From positions 262,545 to 326,544 of the forward strand of contig VIIQ02000112.1 of NCBI GenBank assembly GCA_007449985.2: DNA of 64,000 bases, given 5' to 3'. Shown piece by piece: positions 39,611 through 63,240 of the stretch (its first letter is position 1; every line of letters begins with the position of its first letter). Source of the stretch: Desmodesmus armatus. Its lineage: Eukaryota > Chlorophyta > Chlorophyceae > Sphaeropleales > Scenedesmaceae. The notes beneath the pieces are model-generated. The model ran no database searches. It was not told where the DNA came from and saw only the letters and a program-made list of their open reading frames with translations. The position numbers were made by a program, and so were the translations under genes.

Positions 39611-39697
39611 TGCCGCCGCACAATATAGCCTCACCTTGTAATGTTCCGTCTGTAGCTGCTGCAGCTCTGCTTCGATCCATGCTGCTGCCGCTGCCGC

Positions 39698-39731
<34 letters not shown>

Positions 39732-39915
39732 GCCGCCGCCTCATAGACAGCCTCACCTGATTTTGCTCCAGCTGTAGCTACTGCAGCTCTGCTTCGATCC
39801 GTGCTGCTGCCGCTGCCGCTGCCGCTGCCGCTGCTGCTGCTGCCGCCGCCGCCTCATAGAATAGCCTCACCTGATAATGCTCCAGCTGTAGCTGTTGCAG
39901 CTATGGCTCCTGCCC

Positions 39916-39954
<39 letters not shown>

Positions 39955-40493
39955 GTGGTGGTGATGGTGGTGGTGGTGGTGGTGGTGGTGGTGCTGCTGC
40001 TGCTGCTGCCACCGCACAGGACAGCCTCACCTTGTAATGCTCCAGCTGCAGCTGCTGAAGCTCCGCTTCGTTCCAGGTTCTAGCAGCAGTCAATGCCTCA
40101 AGGGGTGGCAGCAGAGCCAGCCAGGACCGCCAGAAGCTGCTGCTGCTGTGCTTACTGCGAAGGTATAGGATCCACGCTGCTAAGCGCGTGTTGTCTGGAA
40201 TGCATGTTGGCTCTGCAGTGTTAGTGCAGTTCATAACACAGTGCAAGTGTAGTGTGTAAGGGGCAGGAGCGGGGCTAGCGTTCCAGGCAGCAGCTGTGAT
40301 GAGGTTGCTGATGAACAAATGCTGCGACGCGGGCTATGCTGCTGCTGCTGCTGCTGCTACGGGAGAGAAGCTGAAACACAGCAATAACACAATGCGAAAT
40401 GCGCAATGTGCATCAGAGTCCGGTTAATACCCCCTCTGCACCTGCAAGAACACAATGAGTGCTGCTGTTAGTTCGCCATGCTGCTGCTGCTGC

Positions 40494-42566: not shown

Positions 42567-45500
42567 TCAATGCTCCTCGATTTCCACCTGGAAAGCCTTC
42601 ACAGACGCCGGCCCCCCATCACCCCCAGCGCCACTCACGTCCACCTCTAGAATAGACGGCAAGCCGTCGCTGCCGCTGCCGCCGCTGCCATTGCTGCCAC
42701 TCACAACCGCCGCAACTGCTGCCGACGACCCCACCATAGCCAACCCCGTCGCGGACGCGATCTGTGCTGCGATATGCATGCTGGGGTGCCGCTCGGCACC
42801 GAATGCTGGCCGGCGGCCGCTGCTGCTGCCAATGTCACCAGAGGTCCCGAATGCGCCGCCGAAGCCCTCACGGGAGCCGGGTTTGGTGATCTGGTTGGGT
42901 GGTGCTGTCGCTGCGATGGATGATGCCAATTCACTGGGACGCTGTCAAGGGTGGAGCAGGCAGCCTGGGGGGGGGGGGGGGGCAGGGGGGCAGGGGGCAG
43001 CAGCAGCAGCAGCAGCAGAGCGCAACTTCAGCGGTCGCTGATGTGATAACACTCATAGTGTCTGCACTTGCTGGGGCTCGCGAATGTAACCCAGCCTCAC
43101 TGCAATGCGCCTACGGCAATTCCCCCCTTCTCAACCCACTTGCAGTGCCTCCACCACCGCCTATGCCTTGTTCTTGCCCCCCCCCCCCCCCCCAAAAAAA
43201 AAGAAAAACACCCCCCCCCTCACCCCCTCCAGCAACCCCCCCCCCCCCACCGTTTACAAACATACCTGCAGTGCTGCCTGTGCCTTGCTTCTAGCCTCCC
43301 CCCCAAACCATCCTCCTCCCCCCCCACCCCCGCCCCAAAATCCACCCACCGACCCCCCCCCCCCCCACACACACATGCAGCGCCTTGACTGCTGCCTTTG
43401 CCTTGCTCCTTGCCTCCACCCCCCCCCCCCCCCCCGCCCACGCCCACCCCCCGTGCACCCCACCCCCCCTGCAGTGCCCCCACACAGTTACCACCAATAC
43501 GACCCAACCCCCTTCACACCCAGACCCCCCCCCCCTCCCGCACCCCATGGGGGCACCAAAAAGTAATATCCCCTTCACACCTGTAGTGCCTCCACTGCTG
43601 CCTGTGCCTTACTCCTTGCCTCTGCACTGCACAACCAGCACCTCAACCCCTCCCCATTCAGACCCCCCCCCTCCCCGGGGGCCTGGGGCCCACCAACCAC
43701 ACACGCATGACTCTCCTTGTAGGGTCACATTTGTGCCTGATAGAGTTTGCTTGCTTGTGACTTGCATGTGCGCTGTAGGCTAGCTATATATATGTATGCT
43801 GTATGTCTATCACGTACCTGTAGTGCCTCCACTGCTGCCTGTGCCTTGCTCCTTGCCTCTGCACTCCACCAACAGAACCCCCTCCCCATTTCAGACCCAC
43901 ATGGGGGCCCCAAGGGCGCCCAAGACTGACGACCCCCCCCCCCCACACACACACACACACCTGCAGTGCCTCCACCGCTGCCTGTGCTTTGCTCCTTGCC
44001 TCTGCCACATCATCACGCTCAGCAAGCAACTCCTCAGCTAGGGAGTCCCTATTGAGTGTGGCACAGCAGCAGAGCAACCGGTGACACACATTCAGTAAAG
44101 TGTGTTACACAGAGCATAATAATGGAAGAGTCCCTGTGGGAGCGGCAGCAGAGCAAAAGTGACGCACAGCTACGCCAGGAAGTATTGCACTCATCACGAC
44201 GATGTGCTGCCATTGGCCTCCATCCACACAGGGCATTCATACTCACCCCCCCCCCCCCATCCCTTGCCCCCCTCCCACACACAGGCACATGTTCATCTCT
44301 GTAGAATGAAATCTCCTCATCTCTGCCCCCCCTACACAAATGTGTGTGACGAAACACACTTGGCGAGACTGGCCTGTCATCAATACGACTGTTCAGGTCC
44401 AGCAAGACAGGTACCTTGCTGGATGCAAACCATGTATGAACCCACCTGTAGCGTTGTGCGATGAGGTGCTGCTGCAATCATCCCCCCCTACACACCCCAC
44501 AACCATCACCACTACCCTGTGTGCCTTGCTCCCCCCCCCCTCTCACACAAAAACACCACCCAAACCCAAGCCTACTGGATTTTGCAGCCCCACCTGTAGA
44601 GTTGTGCGATGAGGTGTTGCTGCAATCATCCCCCCCTACACACCCCACAACCATCACCACTACCCCGTGTGCCTTGCTCCCCCCCCTCTCACACAAAAAC
44701 ACCACCAAAACCCAAGCCTACTGGATTTTGCAGCCCCACCTGTAGAGTTGTGCGATGAGGTGTTGCTGCAATCATCCCCCCCTACACACCCCACAACCAT
44801 CACCACTACCCCGTGTGCCTTGCCCCCCCCCTCTCACACAAAAACACCACCCAAACCCAAGCCTACTGGATTTTGCAGCCCCACCTGTAGAGTTGTGCGA
44901 TGAGGTGTTGCTGCAATCATCCCCCCCTACACACCCCACAACCATCACCACTACCCCGTGTGCCTTGCTCCCCCCCCCCTCTCACACAAAAACACCACCC
45001 AAACCCAAGCCTACTGGATTTTGCAGCCCCACCTGTAGAGTTGTGCGATGAGGTGTTGCTGCAATCATCCCCCCCTACACACCCCACAACCATCACCACT
45101 ACCCCGTGTGCCTTGCCCCCCCCCCTCTCACACAAAAACACCACCCAAACCCAAGCCTACTGGATTTTGCAGCCCCACCTGTAGAGTTGTGCGATGAGGT
45201 GTTGCTGCAATCATCCCCCCCTACACACCCCACAACCATCACCACTACCCCGTGTGCCTTGCCCCCCCCCCCCTCTCACACAAAAACACCACCCAAACCC
45301 AAGCCTACTGGATTTTGCAGCCCCACCTGTAGAGTTGTGCGATGAGGTGCTGCTGCAATCATCCCCCCCTACACACCCCACAACCATCACCACTACCCCG
45401 TGTGCCTTGCTCCCCCCCCCTCTCACACAAAAACACCACCCAAACCCAAGCCTACTGGATTTTGCAGCCCCCACCTGTAGAGTTGTGCGATGAGGTGCTG

Positions 45501-47989
45501 CTGCAATCATCCCCCCCTACACACCCCACAACCATCACCACTACCCCGTGTGCCTTGCTCCCCCCCCCCTCTCACACAAAAACACCACCCAAACCCAAGC
45601 CTACTGGATTTTGCAGCCCCACCTGTAGAGTTGTGCGATGAGGTGCTGCTGCAATCATCCCCCCTACACACCCCACAACCATCACCACTACCCCGTGTGC
45701 CTTGCTCTCCCCCCCCCCCCTCTCACACAAAAACACCACCCAAACCCAAGCCTACTGGATTTTGCAGCCCCACCTGTAGAGTTGTGCGATGAGGTGCTGC
45801 TGCAATCATCCCCCCTACACACCCCACAACCATCACCACTACCCCGTGTGCCTTGCTCCCCCCCCCTCTCACACAAAAACACCACCCAAACCCAAGCCTA
45901 CTGGATTTTGCAGCCCCACCTGTAGAGTTGTGCGATGAGGTGCTGCTGCAGCCCCTGTTGGCTGTGTGCCTAGCTCACCCCCCCCCCCCCCACCACACAC
46001 ACACACAGGTACACGTTTGGATGTGTGCTGTCTATCTACACACACGAAAAGCCCCACCTGTAGAGTTGTGCGATGAGGTGCTGCTGCAGTCCCCGTTGGC
46101 TGTGGTGCACCAGGAAGCGCATCAGAGCCTTGGGCACTAGGTCAGCCAGGTTGCCACGAACAATGTCGAAATAGTTGGATACCAGCAGCCGAATCACCTC
46201 AACCTGTGCAGAAATGGTGGCAAGTGATAGTGTGTGGGTGTGTGGTGGTGGTGGTGGGGGGGGGCACAGAGCAGCTGTCAAGCGCATGATCCAACACTGT
46301 AGTGAGTGAAGTTGAAATTTTGGTCAGGGGTGATGTCATATACGAAGCCTTGGGCACTAGGTCAGCCAGGTTGTCGCGAACAATGTCGAAATAGTTGGAT
46401 ACCAGCAGACGAATCACCTCAACCTGTGCAGATATGGAGGCAAGTGATGGTGTGTGGGTGTGTGGTGTTGGTGGTGATGGGGGGGGGGGGCACAGAGCAG
46501 CTGTCAAGCGCATGATCCCACAACATAGTGAGTGAAGTTGAAATTTTGGTCAGGGGTGATGTCATATGCAAAGCCTTGGGCACTAGGTCAGCCAGGTTGT
46601 CGCGAACAGTGTCAAAGTAGTTGCTGACTAGCAGACAAATCACCTCAACCTGCGTGGAAAAAACGACAATAACAGTGTGTATTGTGGATGGGCCAGGTTG
46701 GTACACACACAACCAAGGCAGTCGGTCAACAAATCATGCCACACATCCCAAAACGCACCTGCACTTCCCATCTTCTTGTGTTGGCTTGGTTTCAGCTGTG
46801 TATCTGTGTGTCCCGTCAACCTCTATAAACCCTCACCCCCCTTGCGGTTGTTGCTCGCATCAGAACCCCTTCCTGCTTGGCTATATTGCCACTTCGACCC
46901 CCTACAAACCAGGCACCCTGGCCCTTCCTCACTGCCAGTCCTCAACCCCTAAACAAAAAACATTATATGTCCGGTTCAAAACACACCTGCACCTCTTCAT
47001 GTTCATTCCTTGGCTTTGTCTCCATCCTCATGTCCATGCCTCCCCCCTCACCCCCTTCCACCCTCTCCACCCCTTGTTCCTGCTGCTTGCCCCCCCCCCC
47101 ACACACACACAGATGTAACACACATGTTAACACACACACATACACCCTTCTGCTACCTTGCGCACTATGAACCCCCCACCCTCCCCACCCTCCCCCTTCC
47201 CAAAACCACAACCCAAAAGAACCTCCTTCCACAAACCCACCTGCACCTCTTCATGTTCGTTCCTAGGCTTTGTCTCCGCTGCCATCCTCATGTCCATGCC
47301 TCCCCCCTCACCCCCATCCACCCTATTGTCCCCACCGCTTGCATCAAGCCCCCCTGCTTTGCTACCTTCCCGCCTCAAACCCTTACACACCACCTGCACA
47401 ACCAGGTACCCTCACCACTCTTCACCCTTGATCCCTCAACCCTAAAACCCAAACCAGAGATATTGTCACGTCTCCCGGCTCAGAGACGCACCTGCACCTC
47501 TTCATGTTCATTCCTTGGCTTTGTCTCTGCCGCCATCCGCATGTCCATGCCTCCCCCCTCACCCCCCTCAACCCCCTTGTCCCTACTGCTGTCAAACTTG
47601 CCCAGCCAGCCAAACCAACTGCCGCCGCTGTGGCTGCCACTGCTGCTGGCGTCCGGCGGCTGGCGGCTGCTGCTGCTGCCGTGGCTTAGGCTGTAGCTGC
47701 TGCCGAATGCTGCGTTGCTGCTGCTGCTGCTGTCGTCGAACTCGATCATCAGCGGAGAGCGAAGGGGATTGCCGCCACGGCCACGCCTGTGCAAATACAG
47801 AAGTATGTGCAAAGGGCGGAGGGGAGGGGGCAACACATTGTGAGTGGGGTTGTGTAAAGGGGTGTGGGGATGGAGAGAGGGAAGATGGGGAGCAACCCAC
47901 GGCATGTCGGCGCCTGGCGGCTGCTGCTGCCGTGGCTGAGGCTGTAGCTGCTGCCAAACGTGGCTGAGGCTGTAGCTGCTGCCAAATGC

Positions 47990-48027
<38 letters not shown>

Positions 48028-48873
48028 CGTCGAATTCGATCATCAGCAGAGAGCGCAGGGGGTTGCCGCCACAGCCACGCCTGTGCAAAGAGAGAGGTAT
48101 GCGCAAAGGGGGTGGGGAGGGGGGAGGGCAAAACACTGTGATTGGGGTTGTGTGAAGGGTTATGGGAAGAGAGTGAGAGGATAATAAGGAGCGACCTAAG
48201 AATGTGCGGTTGGCAACTGCTGCTGCCGTGGCTGGGGCTGTAGGTGCTGCCGAATGCTGCAGTGCTGCTGCTGCTGCTGCTGTCGTCGAATTCGATCATC
48301 AGCAAAGAGGGGAGGGGGGAGGGTGCAGGGAGCACACACTCAACCCCCTCAACCCCCAAACCACATCCCGGCACTGCAACCCCACCCACCCATACAGTAG
48401 GCCGCTGCCCCCCCCCCCCCCCGCCCCCACTTGAGTGGCCCAAGTCTCCCCCCCCTCCAACCCCCACAACCCTCGTTCACCTTCCCTCCCAACAAGTCCA
48501 GCCACTCTCCCACTCACCCTACCAGCAGGGCGTTGCTGCCCGTCAGCACGCTGCTGCTGCCACTGCCACTGCTGCTGCTGCTGATGTGGCTGCTGCTGCG
48601 GCTGCTGGTGCGTGACAACCCCCCCCCCCCCCCAAAAAAAGAAACGTCACTCACCCTGCCAGCAGGTCATTGCTGCCGGCCAGCACATGGCTGCTGCTGC
48701 TGCTGCTGCTGGTGGTGTTGGTGCGTCCCTCCCCTCCCCCCCCCCCCCCGCAAACGTTTCAAGCACCCCTCTCAGCACGCTGCCGCTGTGTGTGTCATTT
48801 CCCACCACCACCACCCCTCCCCCCTTGGAAAACATCACTCACCCTGCCAGCAGGTCATTGCTGCCGGCTAGTA

Positions 48874-48930
<57 letters not shown>

Positions 48931-49413
48931 GTCACCCCCCCCCCCAAAAGCCTCACACACCCTGCCAGTAGGCTATTGATGCCTGCTAAATGCTGCTGCT
49001 GCAGCTAATGCTGCGTCGCCCCCCCCCCCCCACGCATACGCAACAATAAGCCCCACTCACCCTACCAGCAGGGCGTTGCTGCCCGTCAGCACGCTGCTGC
49101 TGCCACTGCTACTGCTGCTGCTGCTGATGTGGCTGCTGCTGCGGCTGCTGGTGCGTGACAACCCCCCCCCCCAAAAAAGAAACGTCACTCACCCTGCCAG
49201 CAGGTCATTGCTGCCGGCCAGCACATGGCTGCTGCTGCTGCTGCTGCTGGTGGTGTTGGTGCGTCCCTCCCCTCCCCCCCCCCCCCCCCGCAAACGTTTC
49301 AAGCACCCCTCTCAGCACGCTGCCGCTGTGTGTGTCATTTCCCACCACCACCACCCCTCCCCCCTTGGAAAACATCACTCACCCTGCCAGCAGGTCATTG
49401 CTGCCGGCTAGTA

Positions 49414-49458
<45 letters not shown>

Positions 49459-49756
49459 GTCACCCCCCCCCCAAAAGCCTCACACACCCTGCCAGTAGGC
49501 TATTGATGCCTGCTAAATGCTGCTGCTGCTGCTAATGCTGCGTCGCCCCCCCCCCCCCCACGCATACGCAACAATAAGCCCCACTCACCCTACCAGCAGG
49601 GCGTTGCTGCCCGTCAGCACGCTGCTGCTGCCACTGCCACTGCTGCTGCTGCTGATGTGGCTGCTGCTGCGGCTGCTGGTGCGTGACACCCCCCCCCCCC
49701 CAAAAAAGAAACGTCACTCACCCTGCCAGCAGGTCATTGCTGCCGGCCAGCACATG

Positions 49757-49787
<31 letters not shown>

Positions 49788-50531
49788 GTGTTGGTGCGTC
49801 CCTCCCCTCCCCCCCCCCCCCCCCCCGCAAACGTTTCAAGCACCCCTCTCAGCACGCTGCCGCTGTGTGTGTCATTTCCCACCACCACCACCCCTCCCCC
49901 CTTGGAAAACATCACTCACCCTGCCAGCAGGTCATTGCTGCCGGCTAGTACGCCGCTGCTGCTGCTGCTGCTGTGTCACCCCCCCCCCCAAAAGCCTCAC
50001 ACACCCTGCCAGTAGGCTATTGATGCCTGCTAAATGCTGCTGCTGCTGCTAATGCTGCGTCGCCCCCCCCCCCACGCATACGCAACAATAAGCCCCACTC
50101 ACCCTGCCAGCAGGTCGTTGCTGCCGGCCAGCACGTGGCTGCTGCTGCTGCTGCTGCTGTCACGCAGACCCTTCAGGCCCATGGCACCACCAGCAAGACC
50201 ACCACCACCTCCTGTGTAAGCAGGGGGCGAAGATGCAGCGCACACACAAGCACATCAGATTGACGTTCCATCAATACACCAGCCAAGAAGAGAGGGGGGG
50301 GGGTGAAGGGGGGGGGGGGCTTGATGTTGTCTGGTCTCAACAACATACACTGAACCCAATGCCACTAAGCATGTTGCATACACAGCTTCAGGCCCATGGC
50401 ACCACCAGCAAGGCCCGCACCACCTCCTGTGTAAGGGGGGTGGGGTGGGTGTGGGGTGGGGTGTGTGCAGGGGGGGGGGGGGGGGGGACACACAGTCAGT
50501 CCGAGATTGAACACCAACAGCACGTGCTTGA

Positions 50532-50564
<33 letters not shown>

Positions 50565-51606
50565 GCAAGGGAGAGGGGTAATGCTTCCAGCACACTATTT
50601 ACTGGGGACCCTTCAGGCCCATGGCACCACCAGCAAGGCCCGCACCACCTCCTGTGTAAGCAGGGGGCGAAGATGCAGCGCACACACAAGCACATCAGAT
50701 TGACGTTCCATCAATACACCAGCCAAGAAGAGAGGGGGGGGGGTGAAGGGGGGGGGGCTTGATGTCGTCTGGTCTCAACAACATACACTGAACCCAACGC
50801 CACTAAGCATGTTGCATACACAGCTTCAGGCCCATGGCACCACCAGCAAGGCCCGCACCACCTCCTGTGTAGGGGGGGTGGGGTGGGGTGGGGGTGGGGG
50901 TGTGTGTGCGGGGGGGGGGGGGGGGGGGCGGAGAACACACAGTCAGTCCGAGATTGAACACCAACAGCACGTGCTTGACAGCAGCAGGAGCAGCAACAGC
51001 AGCAGGCAAGGGAGAGGGGTAATGCTTCCAGCACACTATGTACCGGGGACCCTTCAGGCCCATGGCTCCACCAGCAAGGCCCACACCACCTCCTGTGTCA
51101 GCGAGGGGGAGGGGGCACACATGAGCACAGACAACAATTGACAGGCTCAGGCTGTCATGGGTAAGGCCGAGTGTGCCGCATACCTGCCCCCCCCCCGCGT
51201 ATGTTTGACTACTTGGGCATAACTGTCGGAGTCGTCAAACCCAAAGATACACTCTGAACCCCTATAACTTCAACCCTGAACACATCCTAGGTCAAATACG
51301 CAGCTTGCAGCGTACCTCCTCCACCCCCGCGTGTGTCAGGCACTCTGAACCCCTATAACTTCAACCCTGAACACATCCTAGGTCAAATACGCAGCTTGCA
51401 GCGTACCTCCTCCACCCCCGCGTGTGTCAGGGGTTCAAAATAGCCTGATACCCTGAACAAATTCTGACCCCAATACCCTAGCCCCTATTTTTCTAAACAA
51501 ACAGCTTGCTGCATACCTCCTCCACCCCCGCGTGTGTCAGGTGTAGGTGGTCCCCCTCCACCTGCTGCTGCCAGCATGGGGTTGGACTTCGCCTTGTGAA
51601 GGTCCT

Positions 51607-51664
<58 letters not shown>

Positions 51665-54600
51665 TTTAGACGCTTGTACTGTGATAGCAATCTGCTCTGG
51701 TGCACGTCTGGTCCCGATGCTGGTATTGCTTGAAGGTAACCAGCTGAGGCTAAGTGAATATTGTCAGCTGCAATCGCAAACAACCAACATCACTGGGAAC
51801 TAGTAGCCTTAGTAAGCACAGCGAGGAGCCAGCATATTTGTTTCGGACAAACACTCCCAAGCAACACGCACCGTTCGTCCGTCTGCTCCCTCTGCTGCTG
51901 CTGCCTTGCGCGCCTCACGTTGCTCCATAACAGCCTGAAGGGGGGGTGGGCGGAGGGGGGGGGGGGAAAGGGGGGGGGGGGGGGGAGGGAGGGAGGCAGA
52001 AGCGGGGGGGGGGGGGGGGGGGGAGGGAGTCAGTCAGTCAGTCAAAAAGTTGTTGAGAAAGGATGAGACAGGGCTGGGGCAAGAACACGAGTCCTGTTGT
52101 GCTGGTCGAATTGAGGGCAGCAACAGCATGCAGTCAGGTGGCGACACTACTGCTGCTGCTCCCTCTGCTGCTGCTGCTGCTGCTGCTGCCTTGCGCGCCT
52201 CACGCTGCTCCATATCAGCCTGGAAGTAGGGGGGGGGGGGGGAGGGGAATTGCACAACAGGGTAAGTGGGGCAAGGGGCAGGCATTTTTGATGTTGGTCT
52301 GGTGGTGGTGATGGTGTGTGGAAGGGATTGTGAGGGCGGCAGAGAGGGGTGCATGGTGTGGCGGTGTGTTGATTGCACAAGTTGTGGGTGGTGTGGTCAA
52401 TGCACAACTTGTGGGGGGTGTGGGGACGTCTTTTCGCGGCAGCCTATAAAAAGCGAGCAACAGCTTGTGGACATGAAAGTGGTGTGGTCTGTGTATGTGG
52501 GCCGGCTCCGGCCAGTGTAGAGCCCTGGCAAATGTGACTTGAAGTTACACGCAGTACACAGCCGATACAAGAACGCCACCAGTGGTCCAAAACAGGGCCC
52601 CAGGGGGGGGGGGGTGGTGACCATATGTGTAGGCATCAAATAGCTGGGCGGCACACACTGTTGATACATGCAGAAGTGTAGGCCATCACCCACCTTGACT
52701 GCACGTGTGCCCCCAATGAAGTCAGGGTGGTCTGTGTTGATGTACTCATGCCCGTATGTTGATGTGATAAGCCTTGCTGCATGTTGCACTCCAACATCCA
52801 TTCACATTGTCTCCAAGCACAGCCTACCCCCCCCCCACACACACACACATCACCACCACCACCACAAACATACATTCTTGACCCCACCCACCTTGACTGC
52901 GCGTGTCCCCCCAATGAAATCAGGGTGGTCTGTGTTGATGTACTCATGCTCACACGCAACCAACTCACGAATCATCTTCTCAGCAGGCTGGGCACCAGAC
53001 TGCAGCAGCAGCAGCAAAGAACTGCCGGCCTTCAAAGAGAGCAGGGTTCGCGATTGGCACCAGTGTTGCAGTGTGTTGAGGGGTTTGGGACTTTGGGGGA
53101 GGGGGGGGGGGTATCGGCAATAGAAAGCAGTTGAGCCCTCCCCTATTGGCCTTGATGTAGCTGCTACAGTATGAGTCACAAGCAGCAACTGAAGTTGTGG
53201 TATACATTTGAGATTTTGCCCAGCAACAGTGCCCCCCCCCCCAAAAAACCCCAACTGCACCCCCCCCCCCCCACGTCCAAGCGCAGAAGAACCACAGACG
53301 AACCACAGTGCCCCCCCCCTCCTGGATGTAGTCCAGCACTGCAGGCGCCGTTGCAGCGCCCGGAAGCGGCCCACCCCCTCAGCAACCTACTTCTGTCTCC
53401 CCATCCACAAGTTGTGACCCCACCGTCTCAAAGCCCCCCCCCCCAAAAAAAGACAGCCCCCCCCCCCTCCCCCCCAAAATAAGACAGCCCCCCCCCCCTC
53501 TCTTTCAACCACACACACACACACCTGGATGTAGTTCAGCACTGCTGATGCCAGGCGCCGCTGCAGCGCAGGGAACCTGCCCACCCCCTCCCCATCTGCT
53601 TCTGTCTGCCCATCCACACCAGTTGTCACCCCACCATCCCCCCCCCCCCCTGCATGTAGTCCAGCACCGCGGATGCCAGGCGCCGTTGCAGTGCGGGAAA
53701 GCGCTCCCCACCCCCCTCACCATCTGCATCTGTCTCCCCATTCACCCGACTTGTGACCCCACCGTCACAAAGCACCCCCCCCCTGACAGCCCCCCCCCCC
53801 CCCCCCCCCCCACACACACACAAAACACACAAACCTGAATGTAGTGCACTGCTGATGCCAGGCGCCGTTGCAGTGCAGGGAACTTGCCCGACCCTTTACC
53901 AACTTGCTTTTGCCCGCCACCCACCCACACAGATCCTGACCCCACCGTCTCAAAGCACACACCCCTCTCCCCCTGGTTCAACCAGTCAGTGACACCCCCC
54001 CCCTCCCCCCCCCCCCTCCAACACACCTGGATGTAGTCCAGCACTGCTGATGCCAGGCGCCGCTGCAGTGCGGGGAAGCGACCCAGGTCCCGGGGTGCAG
54101 CAGCCTCAGCTATCTTCAACAGTTCACCATGAACCAACTCCTGTGGGAGACATACAGACACCAAAATATGGGGTTGCTGGGTGGGGTGCGTGTGTGTGTT
54201 TTTGGGGGGGGTAAGGGACACCAAGCAGTGGTGTTGGTGGTGGTGTTGTTGTTGTTGGTGGTGCATCGCAACAACGAGCGCAAAACACCCATGCGGACAC
54301 GGAGGGTCCCCAATGAAGGGGGTGCAGCAGCCTCAGCTACCTTCAAGAGCTCACCATGAACCAATTCCTGTGGGGGCACAGGCAGACAACAGGAGAATGC
54401 GGTGTGTGCATGGTGGGGGCAGTGTTGGTGAGGGGGGGGGGGGGGTTGACTCAATGCAGTGCAGGTGGCGGTTGAATGGTGCACTCCTTTGCCAGAACCA
54501 GCGCAAACATTCAACCGGGAGGGGGCTCCCCATTAGGGGATGGGGGGGGGGGGATGGGGGTGCAGCAGCCTCAGCTATCTTCAACCATTGACAGCTCACC

Positions 54601-56404
54601 ATGAACCAACTCCTGGGGGGACGGACAGACACCAAAAGAGGAGACACCAAAAGAGGGTGGTGTGTGGGTGGGTGCTGTCGTGGTGTGTGGAGTGTATGGG
54701 GGGGGCACCAAGTGGTGGTGGTGGTGGTGGTGGTGTATCGCTTCGCCACAACAAGTGCAAACAATAAATACAATTCATACCAGCACGAAGGTGCTGCACA
54801 ATCAAGCAAGGGGAGGGGGTGCAGCAGCCTCAGCTATCTTCAACAGCTCACCATGAACCAACTCCGATAGGGGCAAAAAAGACAAGACCAATTGTTTTCT
54901 GGTTGCTTTGGTCTGTGGGCTTTTCTTCCAGTTCATGAGGTGGGGGAAGACGCTGAGCTGTGGCAGTAGAACCTACTGGTAAGCATTAAGCCTAAACCCT
55001 AAACCCTACAACCTAAACCCTAAACCCTAGGGTCTGCTAGGGTTTGCACCTGTACAACCCTTCATCTTGACCCAAACCTACACAGCGGCCTCCCAGAGAC
55101 ACCTTGCAGTTCTGTGCTGGCTCTGTTAGGCGGCCTATGGAGCTCAGCACAAGCAGCTTCAGAAAGGGATCAAGAAGCATGCTGAACCCCCACCAACCAC
55201 CCTCACGGATTAAAACACACCGACTGTCTGTGTCACATGTTCAGCACAACCACACATGCATTCATCTGATCCATTGTACAGCCACAGCCAAGAATTAACT
55301 ATATATGATAATATACTAATATATTGATATTATTATTATTTTATATCATTTTTTTAACAGCCATGTCCTCATCAACAAGCCCCCACCTTGCAGTTGAGTG
55401 CTGGCTCTGTGAGGCGCCCTATACTGCGCCGCACCAGCAGCTCAAACGGCTCCTGTGGGATTAACAGTGTGCCTGAAACAACAGCGCAACAGCAGCGGCA
55501 GCAGCAAGACAAAGTCGCTGATGCGTGCAAACTAGCTTAACATTCCACCACCGCCCCAATGGAAGGAGGGGGCAATGATAGCATAGAATGACAGTGCCCA
55601 GCATATGTGTCTGTCATGGTCCCCCCCCCCTCTAGCAGGCCCCCAAGCCCCCAAGCCCCCCCCCCCCAAACCCCCCGGAACGTCAGGTATGACTAACTCC
55701 ACCCAGCGAACCACACACCCACCTGCCACTCCGCTGCTGTTCTTGATGGCTGTGCGCAAATCATCGTCAGTCCTCTCCTTGAAGGAGACATCATCAACAC
55801 TGACTGACAGAAGACTGACAGTAGCCAGCTTTTACCTGTTTGGTGCCCTCCCCCCACCCCCACCCCCCTCCCACCCCTTCACCCTGTGCCCCACCTCCAC
55901 CTCCACACCTCCAACACAACCCCCACCCCACCATCCACCCACCCACCTGCCACTCCGCTGCTGTTCTTGATGGCTGTGCGCACATCATCATCCGTCAACT
56001 CCTTGAAAGGATCCAGCGACCGCAGCTGACGTGCAAACACCTCCTGCATGGGACAACATAGCACACATAGCACACATACATCATCTATCGATGGCCACGA
56101 CCTTGCGTAGGACACATGTACCACTAGCCAACTCCTTGATGGGAACCAGCGACCGCAGCTGACGCGCAAACACCTCATATGGGTATCAACAACCGCGCAA
56201 CCAGATAGTATCAAAGCCTGTGATCAAGTGTTCAGCAGGCCAGCACCCCCCCCCCCTTCACACATACGTCGAAGCTGTGTCGTATGCAAGCGACGCCCAT
56301 TAGTTAGGACAGCGGCAAACCCTCTCTGTGGTCTCCCCCCCCCCCCTCTCGCCCCCCGGTGCTGCCAAAACATCCACACCCACATGCCCAGACACACGCT
56401 GACC

Positions 56405-56465
<61 letters not shown>

Positions 56466-57103
56466 GACGCCCACATGCCCAGACACACACACTCCTGAAA
56501 GATATGTTGCATGCATGCACCCCCCTGAGTTCACTGAGTGGCAGGGTCTTCACTGCCTCCATGCAAAGTGAGACCCCCCCCCCCCCCCCCACCACGCTCC
56601 AGTCACAAAGGCACACACCTGGAAGATGTGTCGTATGCGTGCCCCTCCCATAAGTTCACTAAACGGCAGGTCCTCACTGTGTCCCCGGGCCCCTTCCCGC
56701 TGCACAAACACACACACACCCAAATATACTCCTGTGTCTACACAGGCACAAACACCTGGAAGATGTGGCGGATGCGTGCCCCGCCATATAGCTCACTCAA
56801 TGGCAAGTCCTCGCTGTTCCCAAACAAACCTTTCAGATACATCAACAAGCAGACCCACACACGGAAACACATGACGAACCCCTGCCCCCTTCCTTGAAAG
56901 CAGCCCCCCCCCCCCCCATCCTCGCACCTACCTGGAAGATGTGTCGTATGCGTGCCCCTCCCATTAGTTCACTGAGTGGCAGGTCCTCACTGTGTCCCTG
57001 CAGCAGCGCTCCAAAGCGCTCAGCATAGCCACACAGCAGCTGCAGCAGCGCAGCACCCCTACAGCAGCAGCAGCAGGAGGAGCAGCACAATGCAAGAAGC
57101 ACC

Positions 57104-57162
<59 letters not shown>

Positions 57163-58755
57163 GGTCTCATGTTAATTTAGCCTTATATGACCCAGTCAGC
57201 GTTGCACATCACCGTCAATATCAACGCCGCCGGTTTGTCATGCAACGCTGCACGCCATTGATGCAGTAGGTTTTGAGGTGTGACACCCGATCTGTGAACA
57301 ACAAACCACAAAGAAACAGTGTTTCCACTGTTACCCAGGCTCACCTAGCTCCCTCTGAGCCCATGTCCAGTGGTGGCCCATACCCTGCTAGCTCAGCGCT
57401 CTTGGCCTCAAGAGCCTCACTGATCTGACGGCGCAGGGTGGGAAGCATCAGACGAATGTGGTTGCCTGTGTTGGGGTTTTTTTGGGGGGGGGGGGAAGCC
57501 AAGTCAAAATGTGTGTCATGTGAGTGACATAAACAGACAAGCCTCAAGGGCCTCACTGATCTGACGGAGCAGAATGGGGAAGCATCGGATGTGGCTGCCT
57601 GTCACAAGGCAGAGGGGACAGCAAAGTCACAACGTGTGTGTTCGACAGGTTGCCCCTCGTCACCGACACTGCAGACAACAACAGCTCCCCACCCTGTCAG
57701 TACCATCTCCCCCCCCCCCCTCCGCCACCGCTTCTCCCCCCCCCCCCCCCCCCCAAAAAAAAACACACATGCAGTCCCCCCCCCCCCTTGCTCACCCAGT
57801 ATAACGTTGATGCGCTTGGCCAGGTTTCCAGTGCCACACTGATGGGGCACATCACTGTAGTCGGGGTGCGCAGCAAACCACTCACGCTCAGCACTGCAGG
57901 CAACAGCAAGGATGGCGGGGCGGCGGGCCGGGGGGGGGGGGGGGTGAAAGGGAGATGGCATGGTGTGGGGCGTGACAAGGAGCCAGTCTACAGGGGTGGG
58001 GCACGTCACTGTTGTCGGGTGCGCGGCAAACCACTCGCGCTCAGCACTGCAGGCGGAAGTAAGGTAAGGAGCAGGTACCAAGGGAACCAGCTGAACAGAT
58101 GGTTCCAGCCAGGGCAATCCTGGGCCTTTCACGGTTCAGGGTTGATCTGGTCCCCCAATTGAGGAGCGCTGCTGAAGCTCAGTAGGGTTGAAGCACCATT
58201 TTTGATATAATTTGTTTGCAGATTGTGACGCTGCAGTTCACAGTACGCTCAGATCTTCATCATTCGAGTGTGGGGGTGGGAGGGTCCGAAGAGGGGGGGG
58301 GTGTCCATGGTAAGGTTTGAGCGAGGAAGGGAAAGCGTGGCAAACCACACATGCTCAGCACTACAGGAAGCAGGCAGAGTGCAGTAAAGTTCACATATGG
58401 CAAGAGGCGGGGCACCCCACTGTACTCAGGGTGTGCAGCAAACCACTCATGGTCCGCATTGCGGACAAACAATACAGCAGAAGGACAGAATTCATGCGGC
58501 CGGGACTGCAAAACCGACGGGGAGGGGGGGGGGGGTGCAACTTCACAGTGTGTTTTGCAACGCCACAGTGTGTTTTTGCCAGGACAGCAGGTGTTTTTGA
58601 AACCACATTTACTCAGCATGCATTGATATGGGCAAGCGAGCGATGCCATGCACTTAATTTATCCGCGGGGAGGGGGGGGGGCAACAGTGAGTTGTTGGTG
58701 TGTGGATGTGGGTGTCGACAAAGGGAGTACTTGGATACATGCAAGCTGTGTGTTT

Positions 58756-58787
<32 letters not shown>

Positions 58788-61700
58788 GGTGACAGAGAGA
58801 GTTGTTGGGGGGGGGGTGGAGGGGGAGGGAAGGCGATGTGGAGGGCGCAAAAGGCAAGTCACCTTTGGCAGCCTCCACATTGCGTGCCCGTTGTCCCCCC
58901 CCCCCCCCCCCCCCCCGCAAAACAACTCTCTGTCCCAAATTGACTCAAGAATCCTCTTGTGCAGCACAGTGATTCCTTCATACAGAGCTTCAGCCCTGGC
59001 TCACTACTGGTGTGTAGGAATTTGGCTCAGCAGTGATAGCTGATTGCGTACGCCCAGGGCCTTGATGTGCACACCACGCTCATCACTTGATGTGTGTAGA
59101 CACAGGGAGTGCATCCAGCCAATGCATCAACCATCCAAGGTTGTGACATTCCAAAGTTGGGTGTTTGTTTGCAGCAAACTCACTCTTTTTTTTCGTTACC
59201 TCACTTTTTTTTGCTACCGCACTCACTTGCGTGCCGCCCTCATGCTCTTGTTGCTGATGATGTCAGCCTGGCTGCGGTTGACAGTTGCCACGTAGCCCAA
59301 GCGCAGGGGGACAACCAGGTTGGCCAGGGCTGCCATTGCATTGGTGCCACGGTCCATGATGTCAAGCTTGGTCAACACACCTGCATTTGGGTGCAGAGGC
59401 GGGCGGTGGGGCGTGGGGTGGGGTGGGGTGGGGGGTGGGGGGTCACACACCATACCGCTTGCACACGTGCGGTGGAGCATTTCCAGTTATTCAACCTGGC
59501 CCCCACACAAAGACAACTGACAGCCACACCGGAGGACAACACAGGCAGGGCTGCCATGGCATTGGTGCCACGGTCCATGATGTCAAGCTTGGTCAACACA
59601 CCTGCATTTGGGTGCAGAGGCGGGCGGTGGGGCGTGGGGTGGGGTGGGGTGGGGGGTGGGAGGGTCACACACCATACCGCTTCCTTACGTGCGGTGGAGC
59701 ATTTCCATTTATTCAACCTGGCTCCCACACAAAGACAACTGACAGCCACACCGGAGGACAACACAGGCAGGGCTGCCATGGCATTGGTGCCGCGATCCAT
59801 GATGTCAAGCTTGGTCAATACACCTGCATAGTAAACAGAGGGGGGTGTCAAAATGTTGCGAGGGCCCGGGGGGGGGGGGAGAAAATTCAACCTGATGAGT
59901 CAATTTGCACACACATGTCCACAGGCAAGGGCTTCGACCCAGCTGGCTGAAAACGTATAGGAGCTGGCCAGCGCAGCCATGGCATTGGTGCCCCTGTGCA
60001 TGATCTCAAGCTTGGTCAACACACCTGCAGCGGGGAGGGGGAGGGAGAGTTGGGCGAGAGGGGGGGGGGGGGTTGTGTGGGGTTGTGTGTGTGTGTGGGG
60101 GGGGGGGGGGGTCAGAAGAGGATCAACAGCCACACAGCAACCAGCCCTTGCCACCCACTGTCATCTTTCTGTGGGAACCTGCTGCACCATCCCACTGCAC
60201 CATCTGCAGTGCTTTGCTGTTGGCCACCCGATACACATGCCGCCCCCCTCACCATTGGGACCAAAGGTGTTAGTGTCAACACCTACCTGTCAACTGTGCC
60301 TTCGCCCCCCCCCCCCCCGCCGTCCACCAGCTTGGCTGTCTGCACTGCATTCTGTGGCACAGGAGTGCACATGCAAGCCACTTTGCCCTCGAAACCTCCC
60401 GCACATCGACCCATACTAGACTGACTAATGCCGCAGATGCTTGGACAATTGCCTACATGTCACACCCGAAACCCTTTTCCCCCCCCCATGACACCCCCCC
60501 CCAACTGGAAGTCCAGATGATGGAAGTCTTCTGATGAGTAAAAGGAAAGCATCCTTACCCACCGTGCGTGCTCCCTCTGCGTCCACAAGCTGCGCCATCT
60601 GCAGTGCATCGCTAGTGGCTGACTGTACACCCCATTCCTCACTGGAACCCCTTGTCTGGCATGTAAAGGCAATGCCACTGATGCCTGCATACTGGCTGCA
60701 CCCCCCCTCCCCGGGGGCAGGTTTGATATCGCCGGATTCAATGCTTTTTTATTGAAGGAGAAAGGGGAGTAACCCTACCTATCGTGCGTGCTCCCTCTGC
60801 GTCCACCAGTTGCGCCATCTGCAGTGCATCGCTGTTGGCCAGGTCTGTGTTAGCGGCTGACACCGCCAGGATGATACACGACGGCTCACGAATGTACTGT
60901 GTGGTGTGTGTGTGTGGGGGGGGGGGGGCAAGCGGGAATGCGAGAGGTAAGGGGGGGGGAGCAAAAGGGGAGAGGGAAGTCAGTCATGGGTATCTGAGGG
61001 AGGGGGGGGTGCAGAGCGTATAAGCAGCTGGCAGTGGGTTGCTGTTGTCAGCGGACACTGCAAGGCGATGCACGATGGCTCACGAATGTACTGTGAAACA
61101 AGGGAGGGGAGAGGGGAAGCAGTCAACCACAATGTAATTGGAGGGAGGAGAGACGAGTTGCAGGAGGTACAAAATGCAGTGGAGGATCGCATGCGGTGCT
61201 GTTGGCCGCTGACACCGCAAGGATGATGCAGGACGGCTCACGGATGTACTGCAGAGGGAGGGAGGGAGGCAAGTCGTCAGTCACTGGCCATTGGGGGGAC
61301 AATTGGCGGCTGACACCAAAACAGTGATGCAGGACGGCTCACAAAGGTACTAGGGTGAGGGACGAGAGAGGGTGCCACCCTTGGAGGGGGGAGAGATTTG
61401 GGGTCTTGTCAAAGCGAACACGGTGAGTCAAAGCTTGGGGTGGTCGAGGCCCCCACTACGGCAGATGATGCACGAGGGTCAAGAACATGCTCTGTAAACC
61501 CTGCAGTCCAGCAACCCAGCAACAAACCCACACACCTGCAGAATCATCTCCTGATGCGCTGCTCAATATTTGATGGCCACCCACCCTCCAAACCCCCACT
61601 GTGCCAACCCAAAACCCCGCAATAAACCCACTCACCTGCAGAATCATCTCCCTGATGCGCTGCTCGATGTTAGAGGGTTGGTCCCCCACAGGAACCTTGG

Positions 61701-62511
61701 TAATGCCTGGCAGGTCAATCAGGGTCATGGTGCTGCACGACAGCAGCAGCAGCAGCAGCAGCAGTGTCAACAGTACAGTACAGTACCCATCAACCCTTCG
61801 GAAATGCTGACCCCATACACGAGCTTGTACTGTGCTTGAACGACACCACCCCCCACACACAGTTGCCCCCTTCGCTGCACAGACACGGGCGCTGTAGGAC
61901 CGCTAGCTAGGATCACAGCATGGTACAGGTGTGCTTATGCTGACACAGACACATCAACACTTTGCATATGTACTAACAGCACGTGTGGTGAGAGGATCTT
62001 GAGGCAAGTGGGGTTTTTCCGCTGGTGTTCCTGTACATTGCCAACAGCGCCTTTGGACCTGACACCCCCTGCATACTGCAAGCAACCCCTCAGAGTCATA
62101 TCCATCCCCTTCCCCCCCCCCCCCCCCCGGGCTCCTACCCCCCCCCCTCCTCCCCGCTGGCCCTGCACTCACAGCACGTTGGTGAGAAGATCTTGAGGCG
62201 TAAGGGTTTGTCGCTGATGTTCTTGTTGCCACCAGAGACCATTATCAAGGCACACAACCAAGTCCCATCATCTGTGTTGCGCTGTGCGTGCATCCCCCCC
62301 CCCCCCCCGCGCCCGTCTCTGCCCCTCCCCTTCCACCCCCCCCCCCCCCCCACCACAACACACACACACACACACGCCCCAGATTCCAGGCTGCCACTCA
62401 CAGCACGTTTGGTGAGAAGATCTTGAGGCGGATGGGTTTGTCACTGATGTTCTTGTTGCCACCTGACACCCTGTCCGTTCTCACTCGCAATCTCAGCACG
62501 GATCCTGCAGC

Positions 62512-62562
<51 letters not shown>

Positions 62563-63035
62563 GAGAGGTTCAACACTGCGCATATGCATTTCCTTTTGCA
62601 TGTGTCTCGACGAGACATTCCGTACAACATGCCCAGGTCAACATTTGTGTGGAAACAAAAGGACTACGTGCCGCCCTGTGCAGTTTGCTGCAACTGACTC
62701 CCACTGGCTGTGACATGTCAGAACAACTGCATCACAAGCGCACACACATTTGCCTGTTTAGGTTGCCCTGTGCCAGCAAACCGACATCCCCCTCCCAAAA
62801 ATCAAAGCACCCCCCCCCCACCCCACCCACACCCACCTGTCAAAATCATAGAAGACCTTTCCAGGTGCATGCAGGAACTCCCCCCCCTCTTGCCCTGCCC
62901 AGCCGCCGGCCATTGCTGCCACTGCTGCCGCCCTGCTGCCACTGCTGCCATTGCTGCCGGTGTCTTGATCAGCTGCAGCACCAGAGGCCGCCGTGTGCAG
63001 ATGTCCGGACCACGCGGCAAGAAATCCCTGCCCAC
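42567..63035 (-). CDS. dynamin-related GTPase (Drp1/DRP3 type), 5' end outside window
   Basis: Exons in gene order: 63035-62837, 62504-62402, 61732-61636, 60896-60779, 59380-59227, 57893-57796, 57465-57345, 57058-56932, 56043-55947, 55692-55682 (microexon), 55452-55387, 54140-54027, 52999-52892, 51934-51872, 51604-51517, 50211-50103, 47786-47492, 46203-46058, 44048-43961, 42964-42567. GTPase motifs: [11 protein letters not shown] (G2), [14 protein letters not shown] (G3), TKLD (G4). The middle domain has [23 protein letters not shown] and [11 protein letters not shown] Ser/Gly-rich variable region ([26 protein letters not shown]) replaces a PH domain. The GED is [16 protein letters not shown] through [20 protein letters not shown]. 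The P-loop exon should lie beyond 64000. It would drive mitochondrial/peroxisomal fission by helical assembly. Three one-base indels interrupt the frame. Confidence 0.85.
43130..43860 (-). repeat. decoy 3'-end copies of GED exon 19
   Basis: The end of exon 44048-43961 ([14 protein letters not shown] plus GTG donor) recurs at about 43818-43855, 43581-43625, 43379-43410, 43264-43290 and 43138-43165, always downstream. Units are separated by long poly-C runs on the plus strand. Identity falls away from the source exon. Confidence 0.75.
44430..45970 (-). repeat. 11-copy ~148-bp array of GED exon end
   Basis: Each unit holds, in gene sense, GATTGCAG, the 26-nt CAGCACCTCATCGCACAACT-CTACAG and a GTGGGGCTGC donor. 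They begin near 44443, 44590, 44737, 44880, 45029, 45177, 45322, 45471, 45620, 45771 and 45917; the true exon end (46058) makes twelve. Units differ mainly in the length of one C run. The exon fragment encodes QHLIAQLY. Because 26 nt is not a multiple of three, including extra copies would shift the frame. Confidence 0.9.
46330..46655 (-). repeat. two decoy 5'-end copies of GED exon 18
   Basis: Copies at about 46330-46434 and 46567-46653 repeat the acceptor and [20 protein letters not shown] of exon 46203-46058, with the same upstream intron. The unit is about 225 bp. Both lie upstream of the complete exon. Confidence 0.85.
46985..47330 (-). repeat. decoy 3'-end copies of variable-region exon 17
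   Basis: About 47240-47325 ([20 protein letters not shown]) and 46985-47055 ([18 protein letters not shown]) copy the end of exon 47786-47492 with its donor. A weaker third trace is at 46750-46800. All lie downstream. Confidence 0.8.
47990..48310 (-). repeat. decoy 5'-end copies of exon 17
   Basis: Copies with [17 protein letters not shown] near 47985-48085 and a shorter MIEFDDSSS near 48284-48305 repeat the start of exon 47786-47492 with acceptor ACAG (ACAGGCGTGGCTGTGGCGGC). Both lie upstream of the complete exon. Confidence 0.8.
48500..50102 (-). repeat. higher-order repeat of exon 16 3'-end copies
   Basis: Blocks of about 545, 523 and 508 bp start near 48515, 49065 and 49588. Each contains several variants of the end of exon 50211-50103 (AGCAGC-rich, then GCCGGCAGCAATGACCTGCT and a GTGAGT donor), separated by distinct poly-C/poly-G spacers. 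Variants read [11 protein letters not shown] and [10 protein letters not shown]. Corresponding monomers in neighbouring blocks are almost identical, while monomers within a block differ. Confidence 0.85.
50230..51100 (-). repeat. decoy 5'-end copies of exon 16
   Basis: The acceptor plus [14 protein letters not shown] start of exon 50211-50103 recurs near 50385-50437, 50609-50661, 50820-50872 and 51052-51097. They are arranged in two ~450-bp blocks that also share AGATTGAACACCAACAGCAC and a CAG tract. All lie upstream. Confidence 0.85.
51300..51430 (-). repeat. decoy 3'-end copies of exon 15
   Basis: Two virtually identical ~85-bp units (CCTCCTCCACCCCCGCGTGT near 51318 and 51403) copy the TRGGGG end and GTA donor of exon 51604-51517. 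A degenerate third lies near 51185-51240. All lie downstream. Confidence 0.8.
51607..51662 (-). repeat. (CTG)n tract forming the acceptor of exon 15
   Basis: About 19 CTG units in gene sense end in CTGCAG directly before exon 51604 (GACCTTCACAAGGCG). Confidence 0.8.
52150..52221 (-). repeat. decoy 5'-end copy of exon 14
   Basis: [13 protein letters not shown] with acceptor TTCCAG, upstream of exon 51934-51872 ([13 protein letters not shown]). It has a longer CAG/Ala tract and no proper donor. Confidence 0.7.
52690..52760 (-). repeat. decoy 3'-end copy of exon 13
   Basis: [19 protein letters not shown] with a GTGGGTGA donor, downstream of the complete exon 52999-52892. Confidence 0.85.
53320..53900 (-). 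repeat. four decoy 3'-end copies of exon 12
   Basis: [21 protein letters not shown] ends at about 53836-53895, 53651-53702, 53527-53590 and 53322-53375, each with a donor and a following G-rich intron start. All lie downstream of exon 54140-54027. Confidence 0.85.
54316..54865 (-). repeat. three decoy 5'-end copies of exon 12
   Basis: [21 protein letters not shown] starts at about 54818-54863, 54573-54612 and 54316-54368, each behind an acceptor. All lie upstream of exon 54140-54027. Confidence 0.85.
54991..55045. repeat. interstitial telomere-type repeat
   Basis: CCTAAACCCTAAACCCTACA continuing with ACCTAAACCCTAAACCCTAG, then TAGGGTTT: short CCCTAAA arrays with a head-to-head end inside a dynamin intron. 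The TTTAGGG type is known from plants and several green algae. Confidence 0.8.
55095..55175 (-). repeat. decoy 3'-end copy of exon 11
   Basis: Reads [18 protein letters not shown] versus [18 protein letters not shown] in the real exon 55452-55387, with the donor altered. It lies downstream. Confidence 0.75.
55295..55355. other. AT-only island in dynamin intron
   Basis: About 55 nt almost entirely A/T (ATATATGATAATATACTAAT) in an otherwise GC-rich intron. Function unknown. Confidence 0.7.
55682..55692 (-). CDS. predicted 11-nt microexon of the dynamin gene
   Basis: In gene sense GAGTTAG precedes TCATACCTGAC, and GTTCCG follows. Exon 56043-55947 ends in phase 1 and exon 55452-55387 starts in phase 0, so a segment of length 2 modulo 3 is required. 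This one adds V-I-P-D, matching the conserved (L/F)(F/V)xPD that precedes PFE in Drp1/DRP3 proteins. Not part of a longer frame, so easily missed. Confidence 0.55.
55720..55795 (-). repeat. decoy 3'-end copy of exon 10
   Basis: [21 protein letters not shown] with a GTGGGT donor, downstream of exon 56043-55947 ([20 protein letters not shown]). Confidence 0.85.
56115..56180 (-). repeat. decoy 5'-end copy of exon 10
   Basis: [17 protein letters not shown], upstream of exon 56043-55947 ([17 protein letters not shown]). Confidence 0.75.
56406..56463 (+). repeat. (CTG)n tract
   Basis: About 19 CTG units on the plus strand (CAG in gene sense) between decoy copies of exon 9. Confidence 0.9.
56490..56825 (-). 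repeat. three decoy 3'-end copies of exon 9
   Basis: [24 protein letters not shown] ends at about 56755-56822, 56617-56687 and (degenerate) 56490-56560, each followed by a donor-like GT. All lie downstream of exon 57058-56932. Confidence 0.85.
57105..57159 (-). repeat. (CTG)n tract upstream of exon 9 acceptor
   Basis: About 18 CTG units in gene sense, followed by a T/C-rich stretch and CTGCTGTAG before exon 57058. Confidence 0.8.
57545..57600 (-). repeat. decoy 5'-end copy of exon 8
   Basis: CTGTTCTCGG-region copy: in gene sense it retains CTCCGTCAGATCAGTGAGGC from exon 57465-57345 and sits upstream of it, with the start of the exon degraded. Confidence 0.7.
58003..58470 (-). repeat. decoy 5'-end copies of exon 7
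   Basis: [10 protein letters not shown] at about 58003-58051, [16 protein letters not shown] near 58425-58470 and a poorer copy near 58340-58380. All lie upstream of exon 57893-57796. Confidence 0.8.
59545..60024 (-). repeat. three decoy 5'-end copies of the G4 exon
   Basis: [19 protein letters not shown] recurs at 59546-59601, 59766-59823 and (as [19 protein letters not shown]) 59970-60024. The unit is about 221, 221 and 201 bp. Each has TGCAG before it. All lie upstream of the complete exon 59380-59227. Confidence 0.9.
60186..60640 (-). repeat. decoy 3'-end copies of exon 5
   Basis: [19 protein letters not shown] ends at about 60553-60620, with degenerate ones at 60310-60350 and 60186-60225, downstream of exon 60896-60779. 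Confidence 0.8.
61038..61352 (-). repeat. three decoy 5'-end copies of exon 5
   Basis: YIREPSC-type starts at about 61041-61093, 61197-61252 ([17 protein letters not shown]) and 61302-61351, upstream of exon 60896-60779. Confidence 0.85.
61535..61585 (-). repeat. decoy 3'-end copy of the G3 exon
   Basis: Copies the [11 protein letters not shown] end of exon 61732-61636 but has lost one C, which breaks the frame. It lies downstream. Confidence 0.75.
61978..62240 (-). repeat. two decoy 3'-end copies of exon 3
   Basis: [16 protein letters not shown] near 62171-62238 and a degraded copy near 61978-62045, both downstream of exon 62504-62402 ([19 protein letters not shown]). Confidence 0.8.
62512..62561 (-). 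repeat. (CTG)n tract forming the acceptor of dynamin exon 3
   Basis: About 16 CTG units in gene sense, then CGCTGCAG and exon 62504. Confidence 0.8.
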
Positions 63036-63167
63036 CTGCATTGCATCAGAAAGGGGGGGGGGTATCAGGGAGGATAAGCGGAGGAGGGGGAATGCCATGA
63101 CAGAATGAACAAGGTGTATATTGAAGGTTGTAGCAAGAATGGTTGTAGGGCCTTATTGCGCCCCTCA

Positions 63168-63233
63168 CCACTGTAGCACCAGGGGCCGCCGTGTGCAGAT
63201 GTCCGGCCCACGCGGCAAGACATCCCGGCCGAC
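63168..63233 (-). repeat. decoy 5'-end copy of the G2 exon
   Basis: [20 protein letters not shown] behind CCCGCAG, upstream of exon 63035-62837 ([20 protein letters not shown]). Confidence 0.85.
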
Positions 63234-63240
63234 CTGCGGG

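Follow-up and report, generated by a model that had tools for sequence, protein, structure and literature searches.

The stretch of DNA described here (hereafter the window) comprises 64,000 nucleotides of the green alga Desmodesmus armatus, taken from an assembly of 115.8 Mb in 831 contigs, and its end is the end of contig C108. The window contains no N and has a GC content of 0.52–0.64 per 2-kb bin. On its minus strand, from position 63035 down to 42567, lies a dynamin-related gene of 19 exons (A–S), nearly all of which are accompanied in the adjacent introns by partial copies of themselves: copies of exon beginnings (heads) with their acceptors lie upstream of the complete exon, and copies of exon ends (tails) with their donors lie downstream.

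The exons were placed by hand on the basis of GT/AG edges and reading frame. Once spliced, exons A–R form one dynamin reading frame, except for a one-base insertion in exon B; a second frame shift occurs close to the start of exon S. Exon Q presumably encodes the GED domain and the P-loop exon is absent from the window. The sequence-only reading had extended the gene to 63240, but the segment at 63171-63236 is a head copy of exon A, and no coding exon was found above A in the window, at whose end the contig stops. The hand-anchored model is as follows:

62837..63035, minus strand, exon A
62402..62504, minus strand, exon B, frame broken by the one-base insertion
61636..61732, minus strand, exon C
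60779..60896, minus strand, exon D
59227..59380, minus strand, exon E
57796..57893, minus strand, exon F
57345..57465, minus strand, exon G
56932..57058, minus strand, exon H
55947..56043, minus strand, exon I
55387..55472, minus strand, exon J
54027..54140, minus strand, exon K
52892..52999, minus strand, exon L
51872..51934, minus strand, exon M
51517..51604, minus strand, exon N
50103..50211, minus strand, exon O
47492..47786, minus strand, exon P
46058..46203, minus strand, exon Q
43961..44048, minus strand, exon R
42567..42964, minus strand, final exon S, without copies by Smith-Waterman alignment with the adjacent intron

The copies, delimited by self-BLAST, Smith-Waterman alignment and inspection of splice sites, are distributed as follows:

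63171..63236, minus strand, head copy of exon A with acceptor
61972..62240, minus strand, two tail copies of exon B with donors
61513..61576, minus strand, tail copy of exon C with donor
61043..61350, minus strand, three head copies of exon D with acceptors
60196..60619, minus strand, two tail copies of exon D, one without its donor
59528..60029, minus strand, three head copies of exon E with acceptors
57983..58468, minus strand, two head copies of exon F, one without its acceptor
57541..57602, minus strand, head copy of exon G
56258..56821, minus strand, four tail copies of exon H, one without its donor
56129..56183, minus strand, head copy of exon I, acceptor lost
55692..55804, minus strand, tail copy of exon I with donor
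55100..55158, minus strand, tail copy of exon J with donor
54319..54865, minus strand, three head copies of exon K, one without its acceptor
53321..53882, minus strand, four tail copies of exon K, two without their donors
52687..52751, minus strand, tail copy of exon L with donor
52192..52222, minus strand, head copy of exon M with acceptor
51250..51434, minus strand, two tail copies of exon N, tandem unit of 91 bp
50377..51092, minus strand, four head copies of exon O with acceptors
48509..49948, minus strand, three superunits of about 535 bp that together hold nine tail copies of exon O with donors
47901..48318, minus strand, acceptor-bearing head copy of exon P, plus an older copy that is degenerate
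46759..47339, minus strand, three tail copies of exon P with donors
46346..46650, minus strand, two head copies of exon Q with acceptors, unit of 226 bp
44441..45966, minus strand, eleven tail copies of exon Q with donors, unit of 148 bp
43375..43889, minus strand, three tail copies of exon R with GT
just below 43375, to about 43265, minus strand, fourth and weaker tail copy of exon R, ending before the donor

Smith-Waterman comparison of each exon with its two adjacent introns, simple repeats being masked, yields 71 exon-like copies in the dynamin gene, 66 of which follow the splice-side rule. Twenty-two are heads that begin at exon base 1, all upstream of the exon, and 44 are downstream tails, of which 37 reach the last base of the exon and seven stop no more than 6 nt from it; the remaining five (two for A, two for P, one for R) belong to neither class. 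No head downstream and no tail upstream was found among the 71, nor any complete exon on the wrong side of its copies. All 18 exons A–R have at least one copy and D, I, K, O, P, and Q have them on both sides; these six correspond to exons 5, 10, 12, 16, 17, and 18 of the sequence-only reading if A is counted as exon 2, and the arrangement, the near-universality and the two-sided exons that it described are all recovered. Seven downstream copies (B one, I one, K three, R two) span most of the exon in gapped alignment, the longest covering K 6-113 of 114 at 72% identity, also gapped, while BLAST limits the near-full B and K copies to the 3′ half of the exon (61-113 for the longest K copy). None of the 71 runs from the first to the last base of its exon, and whole-exon duplication was rejected on this ground.

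A self-BLAST of the masked gene, blind to the exon model, gives 151 same-strand and three inverted pairs, with two of the same-strand pairs more than 12 kb apart. Near pairs linked by overlap fall into 23 groups, of which 22 contain an exon boundary, none is confined to an intron, and the last is a match to the interior of exon A at 67%; a predominance of units wholly inside introns, the outcome that would have spoken against the sequence-only reading, is thus not seen. In non-adjacent introns the same alignment test (19 exons against about 15–18 kb each) finds four matches in total, for which reason exchange with other introns of the gene was discarded. Identity of the copies to their own exon varies between 60 and 100%, the degree of decay differing from copy to copy, and in many alignments similarity ends 3–10 nt past the splice site. 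Throughout 42567-63240, runs of G stand just after many donors and runs of C just before many acceptors, both in the true units and in their copies.

An intact AG is present in 19 of the 22 heads and an intact GT in 40 of the 44 tails (20 of 24 without the O and Q arrays), that is, 59 decoy sites comprising 19 acceptors and 40 donors, in line with the dozens anticipated from sequence. Scoring with a leave-one-out matrix on samples of 18–24 sites showed no significant difference in strength between decoy and true sites. With the O and Q arrays excluded from the donor comparison, 24 decoy donors score 6.8 and 18 true donors 9.1 (P = 0.33), while 22 decoy acceptors score 6.8 and 19 true acceptors 6.1 (P = 0.27); intronic GT and AG as a whole score −0.8 and −1.2. 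Neither a head copy nor a tail copy can serve as an exon by itself. If a decoy took the place of the true site, a stop or a frameshift would follow in 63 of 66 cases; among the 59 decoys whose AG or GT is intact the number is 56, and the frame stays open with the F head at −153, the P head at −294 and the K tail at +192. Since 56 of the 59 intact decoys would have this effect if used, an intact protein must, as far as the sequence tells, come from the earliest-transcribed donor and the latest-transcribed acceptor of each series. Judged from reading frame and decoy strength, such a choice would fit exon definition, and would conflict with a shortest-intron or nearest-pair rule, by which decoys on both sides would be taken, as well as with first-come splicing and first-AG scanning, by which decoy acceptors would be taken.

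The median intron of the dynamin gene measures 976 bp, and 258 bp after the span of the copies is subtracted; the three copy-free introns are 267, 286, and 332 bp long. These values support the proposal, already made in the sequence-only reading, that the introns of this gene grew mainly through the duplications.

Similar copies occur in other genes. In a neighboring gene (window 39411-40100, minus strand) an exon near 40.1 kb that ends in LEHYK, followed by GTGAGG, has several donor-bearing tail copies spaced about 100–120 bp apart, with the same geometry as in the dynamin gene. An FZL-like gene (L013, contig C699), so called from a reading of its GTPase exon, holds eight junction families, one of which adjoins an exon read by eye, two ambiguous mid-exon copies and no intron-only families. 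This gene is part of a wider sample of 20 stretches of 7–10 kb, 11 of them picked for or beside dynamin-family matches, in which the exons are predictions of an ad hoc finder that also accepts decoys, so that the counts are supporting only: among 133 predicted exons 29 have copies (14 heads upstream, 16 tails downstream, two heads downstream, one full, 13 mid-exon, no tails upstream), and without L013 22 of 122 do (10 heads upstream, eight tails downstream, two heads downstream, one full, 11 mid-exon). A homology-anchored sample consists of nine Cpn60/CCT chaperonin genes chosen from 50 matches, with C75 and a second C171 cluster left out. These contain 15 junction families in six genes and none in L032, L034, and L037, as well as three intron-only or unresolved families (L030, L034, L035), several families being classed by eye and one being only 34 nt long. 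Over eight of these genes, L035 being excluded, median intron length is 532 bp where copies are present (n = 9) and 324 bp where they are absent (n = 64; one-sided P = 0.0002). The process is therefore genome-wide yet uneven, and the dynamin gene is the most extreme among the genes examined; the rule extends, less densely, to the FZL-like gene and to six of the nine chaperonin genes, while the other three lack junction families.

Introns and flanks of these stretches also contain long palindromes, 79–89% self-complementary over about 119–165 bp (coding-strand coordinates):

L013, 4602-4720, palindrome
L030, 3703-3831, palindrome
L037, 3983-4118, palindrome
L038, 1566-1704, palindrome
L038, 2383-2547, palindrome

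As read from the sequence, the copies are probably ordinary local tandem duplications of about 100–300 bp, each crossing one splice junction. Young units duplicate exon and intron parts jointly (E, 221–222 bp; N, 91 bp; Q, 148 and 226 bp; also O) and unit lengths range from 100 to 294 bp across 24 families, these being defined by exon ends; the unit holds one boundary with sequence from both sides of it, and the copies lie in direct orientation at short distance. In older units the part derived from the intron has decayed. A duplication over an acceptor would leave spare exon heads upstream and one over a donor would leave spare exon tails downstream, a geometry that is automatic because the duplicated unit contains one junction. 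Junction-crossing duplications would survive provided that the spliceosome stays on the pair nearest the exon, taking the last of the acceptors and the first of the donors, as in exon definition, whereas duplications within or around whole exons would break the protein and be removed by selection. The spare piece would then drift; with constraint acting on one of the two partners, divergence would look roughly half as great in its exonic part as in its intronic part. Repeated events would bring introns of about 260 bp to about 980 bp and leave dozens of strong decoy splice sites behind.

The divergence expected from this scheme was examined in 53 pairs of true exon and copy (46 from the dynamin gene, without the O and Q tail arrays, two from one chaperonin gene and five from the FZL-like gene). 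In 19 of them the flanks are still homologous (z ≥ 3), a selection that favors young pairs, and mismatches amount to 81/942 in the exonic block vs. 272/1376 in the intronic flank, near the ratio of 1:2 that arises where one partner is constrained and the other is free. This agrees with the claim of the sequence-only reading that tandem duplication across a junction yields the observed geometry, and patch-like insertion of exon ends or conservation of decoys, the first interpretations given to the sharp block edges and seemingly backed by decoy-decoy comparison and codon-position counts, was on the same result retained only as a rival with specific outliers. In the other 34 pairs the flank alignment is not clearly above shuffled sequence (z < 3), so flank divergence is understated. 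The neutral-decay model matches block divergence to within about a quarter, with outliers.

Several observations weigh against so simple an account. The 19 homologous pairs show 81 block mismatches where at least 109 are expected under neutral decay, and all 53 pairs together show 277/2681 where at least 376 are expected. Seven of the 53 deviate at P < 0.02, most strongly L033 e9 (block 1/65 vs. flank 33/92, P = 5e-6) and the K head at −724 (P = 6e-4). Changes private to the decoys are biased to the third codon position (30:22:55, O and Q tails left out), a bias that could come from duplication order. Among the 122 predicted exons outside L013, the copies that obey the rule number 18, and those that break it or escape classification number 14. 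Intron-only families that should be visible in the dynamin gene number about 3.7 after correction for visibility and none is seen (P about 0.025). Use of the exon-proximal sites, with the copied ones left idle, is presumed from the intact reading frame.

Part of this evidence would be accounted for if short-tract conversion held the part-exons close in sequence to the true exon, or if a splicing or regulatory role did so, in which decoys restrain or tune splicing. In its favor are the seven low-P pairs, led by the two outliers named above, the intact AG in 19/22 acceptors and GT in 40/44 donors, the third-codon bias of private changes, and comparisons between decoys, whose exonic parts are 86% identical with flanks (72%) near the baseline of unrelated sequence (66%), although unalignable flanks and the order of duplications limit what the decoy-decoy and codon-position tests can show. 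Against it, alignable flanks give a block-to-flank ratio near the neutral prediction, splice sites are lost (7/66) at about the rate of exonic decay, the private changes are far less biased to the third position than those on the true exon (4:6:39), and slippage may simply give the G-rich and C-rich flanks a fast turnover; such preservation is regarded as rather unlikely. It is highly improbable that the arrangement is an assembly artefact with haplotypes or repeat reads joined in the wrong order. Frame shifts of one base interrupt otherwise conserved coding sequence in exons B and S and in the cpn60 gene L035, which does suggest residual assembly indels, and the contig stops inside the dynamin gene, but the window is free of N, the 60–100% identities of copies to exons reflect unequal decay, the same geometry recurs in unrelated genes on other contigs, and misjoins would not always hit mid-exon with the partner on the predicted side. 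A haplotype chimera in particular was dismissed, as decoys within a family have common breakpoints and partial flank homology in place.

A different question is whether duplication is aimed at junctions, where transcription or splicing (through stalled forks, RNA:DNA hybrids or G-run and C-run flanks) would make DNA break or slip. The 22 of 23 groups that hold an exon boundary, the lack of intron-only groups and the G-runs and C-runs next to many donors and acceptors would suit this idea, as does the placement of tolerated random units (neither inside an exon nor holding a whole exon) for the 24 families defined by exon ends: with present introns such a unit straddles a junction with a mean P of 0.21 (product 8.5e-17), and with ancestral intron lengths with a mean P of 0.62 (product 7.7e-6). 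Intron-only duplications, however, fade about twice as fast and are hence harder to see; with exons and copied blocks masked, six of the 24 families are still detectable (assignment of pairs to families by the author), and correction for this visibility leaves the weak excess mentioned above. The chaperonin genes, with 15 junction families vs. three others, give P(≥15 of 18) = 0.047 at the p of 0.62 taken from the dynamin gene and with no visibility correction. Targeting of junctions is therefore held to be unlikely, and the near-exclusive straddling is mostly, though perhaps not wholly, the product of tolerance, short ancestral introns and visibility. The sequence-only statement that nearly all duplications straddle junctions thus stands as a count but is less remarkable than it seemed, and in the comparison with random placement that it called for, an excess exists with ancestral lengths but shrinks once visibility is considered.

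The arrays can be set beside several known systems. Duplicated exons used for mutually exclusive splicing are whole exons with both splice sites; they also repeat exon sequence within one gene, but first-to-last-base copies number 0/71 in the dynamin gene and one full match among the 133 predicted exons elsewhere. Decoy exons in regulated intron retention similarly place strong unused splice sites inside introns, although they are not known to be partial copies of the neighboring exon. Introners (treated in PMC9860276) likewise distribute many copies with splice sites within genes, but are dispersed families common to many genes, whereas the 71 copies match their own neighboring exon with four matches elsewhere in the gene, the comparison being made within the dynamin gene only.

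Tandem genomic duplication is reported as a genuine source of new introns (PMC3443670), as in the Rogers model and the studies of Hellsten (2011) and Gao and Lynch (2009) described there, in which an AGGT-containing exon segment is tandemly duplicated. Splice sites are supplied by local tandem duplication within genes in both cases, but the dynamin unit is not purely exonic and creates no new intron in the reading-frame model: the copies sit inside existing introns of the 19-exon gene. The literature search found no published arrays of part-exon copies; the nearest case found is a single duplication across an intron-exon boundary in potato, which gave a new spliced exon and intron (2016, PMC4974935). 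The potato unit runs from the 3′ end of the intron into the 5′ portion of the exon that follows, copying acceptor, pyrimidine tract and exon head as here, but its copy is spliced in through a cryptic donor (106 RNA-seq reads), whereas the dynamin copies appear to stay in the old intron with exon count unchanged, occur on donor and acceptor sides, number dozens in one gene and lengthen its introns. The events are of the same kind as in the potato report (PMC4974935), but involve both kinds of boundary and dozens of copies in one gene, leaving presumably silent splice sites. The sequence-only reading knew of no named class of such repeats; nothing on this scale was indeed found, although a single junction-crossing duplication is in print (PMC4974935).

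Other features of the window include:

54991-55029, intron J–K, short array of the plant-type telomere repeat CCTAAAC (5.6 copies)
36023-37513, minus strand, open frame of 496 codons with a start rich in Q, L, and A
5747-7041, plus strand, diverged tandem repeat (about 280 bp), in part within an open frame of 311 codons

Part-exon copies are a warning for gene prediction: a simple splice-site and codon model trained on the dynamin gene itself called 71 exons there vs. 19 in the model described here. They also provide a natural test of splice-site choice, as true and decoy sites resemble each other in strength and nearby sequence and are told apart mainly by position, and the selection of pairs among equal sites could be read from the RNA of a wild gene. 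With regard to intron length, values differ among green algae: according to PMC5966456, Tetradesmus obliquus (108 Mb, GC 57%) has a mean intron of 462 bp vs. 230–302 bp in four other species. Junction-crossing duplication offers a concrete and datable way for introns to lengthen (from about 260 to 980 bp in the dynamin gene). A broader proposal, possible but doubtful at present, is that introns of this lineage lengthen chiefly by junction-straddling duplication that is nearly invisible to selection under strict exon definition, in a process that may be aimed at junctions and whose copies may stay exon-like by short-tract exchange; if this were true, intron length would be a by-product of the mode of splicing.

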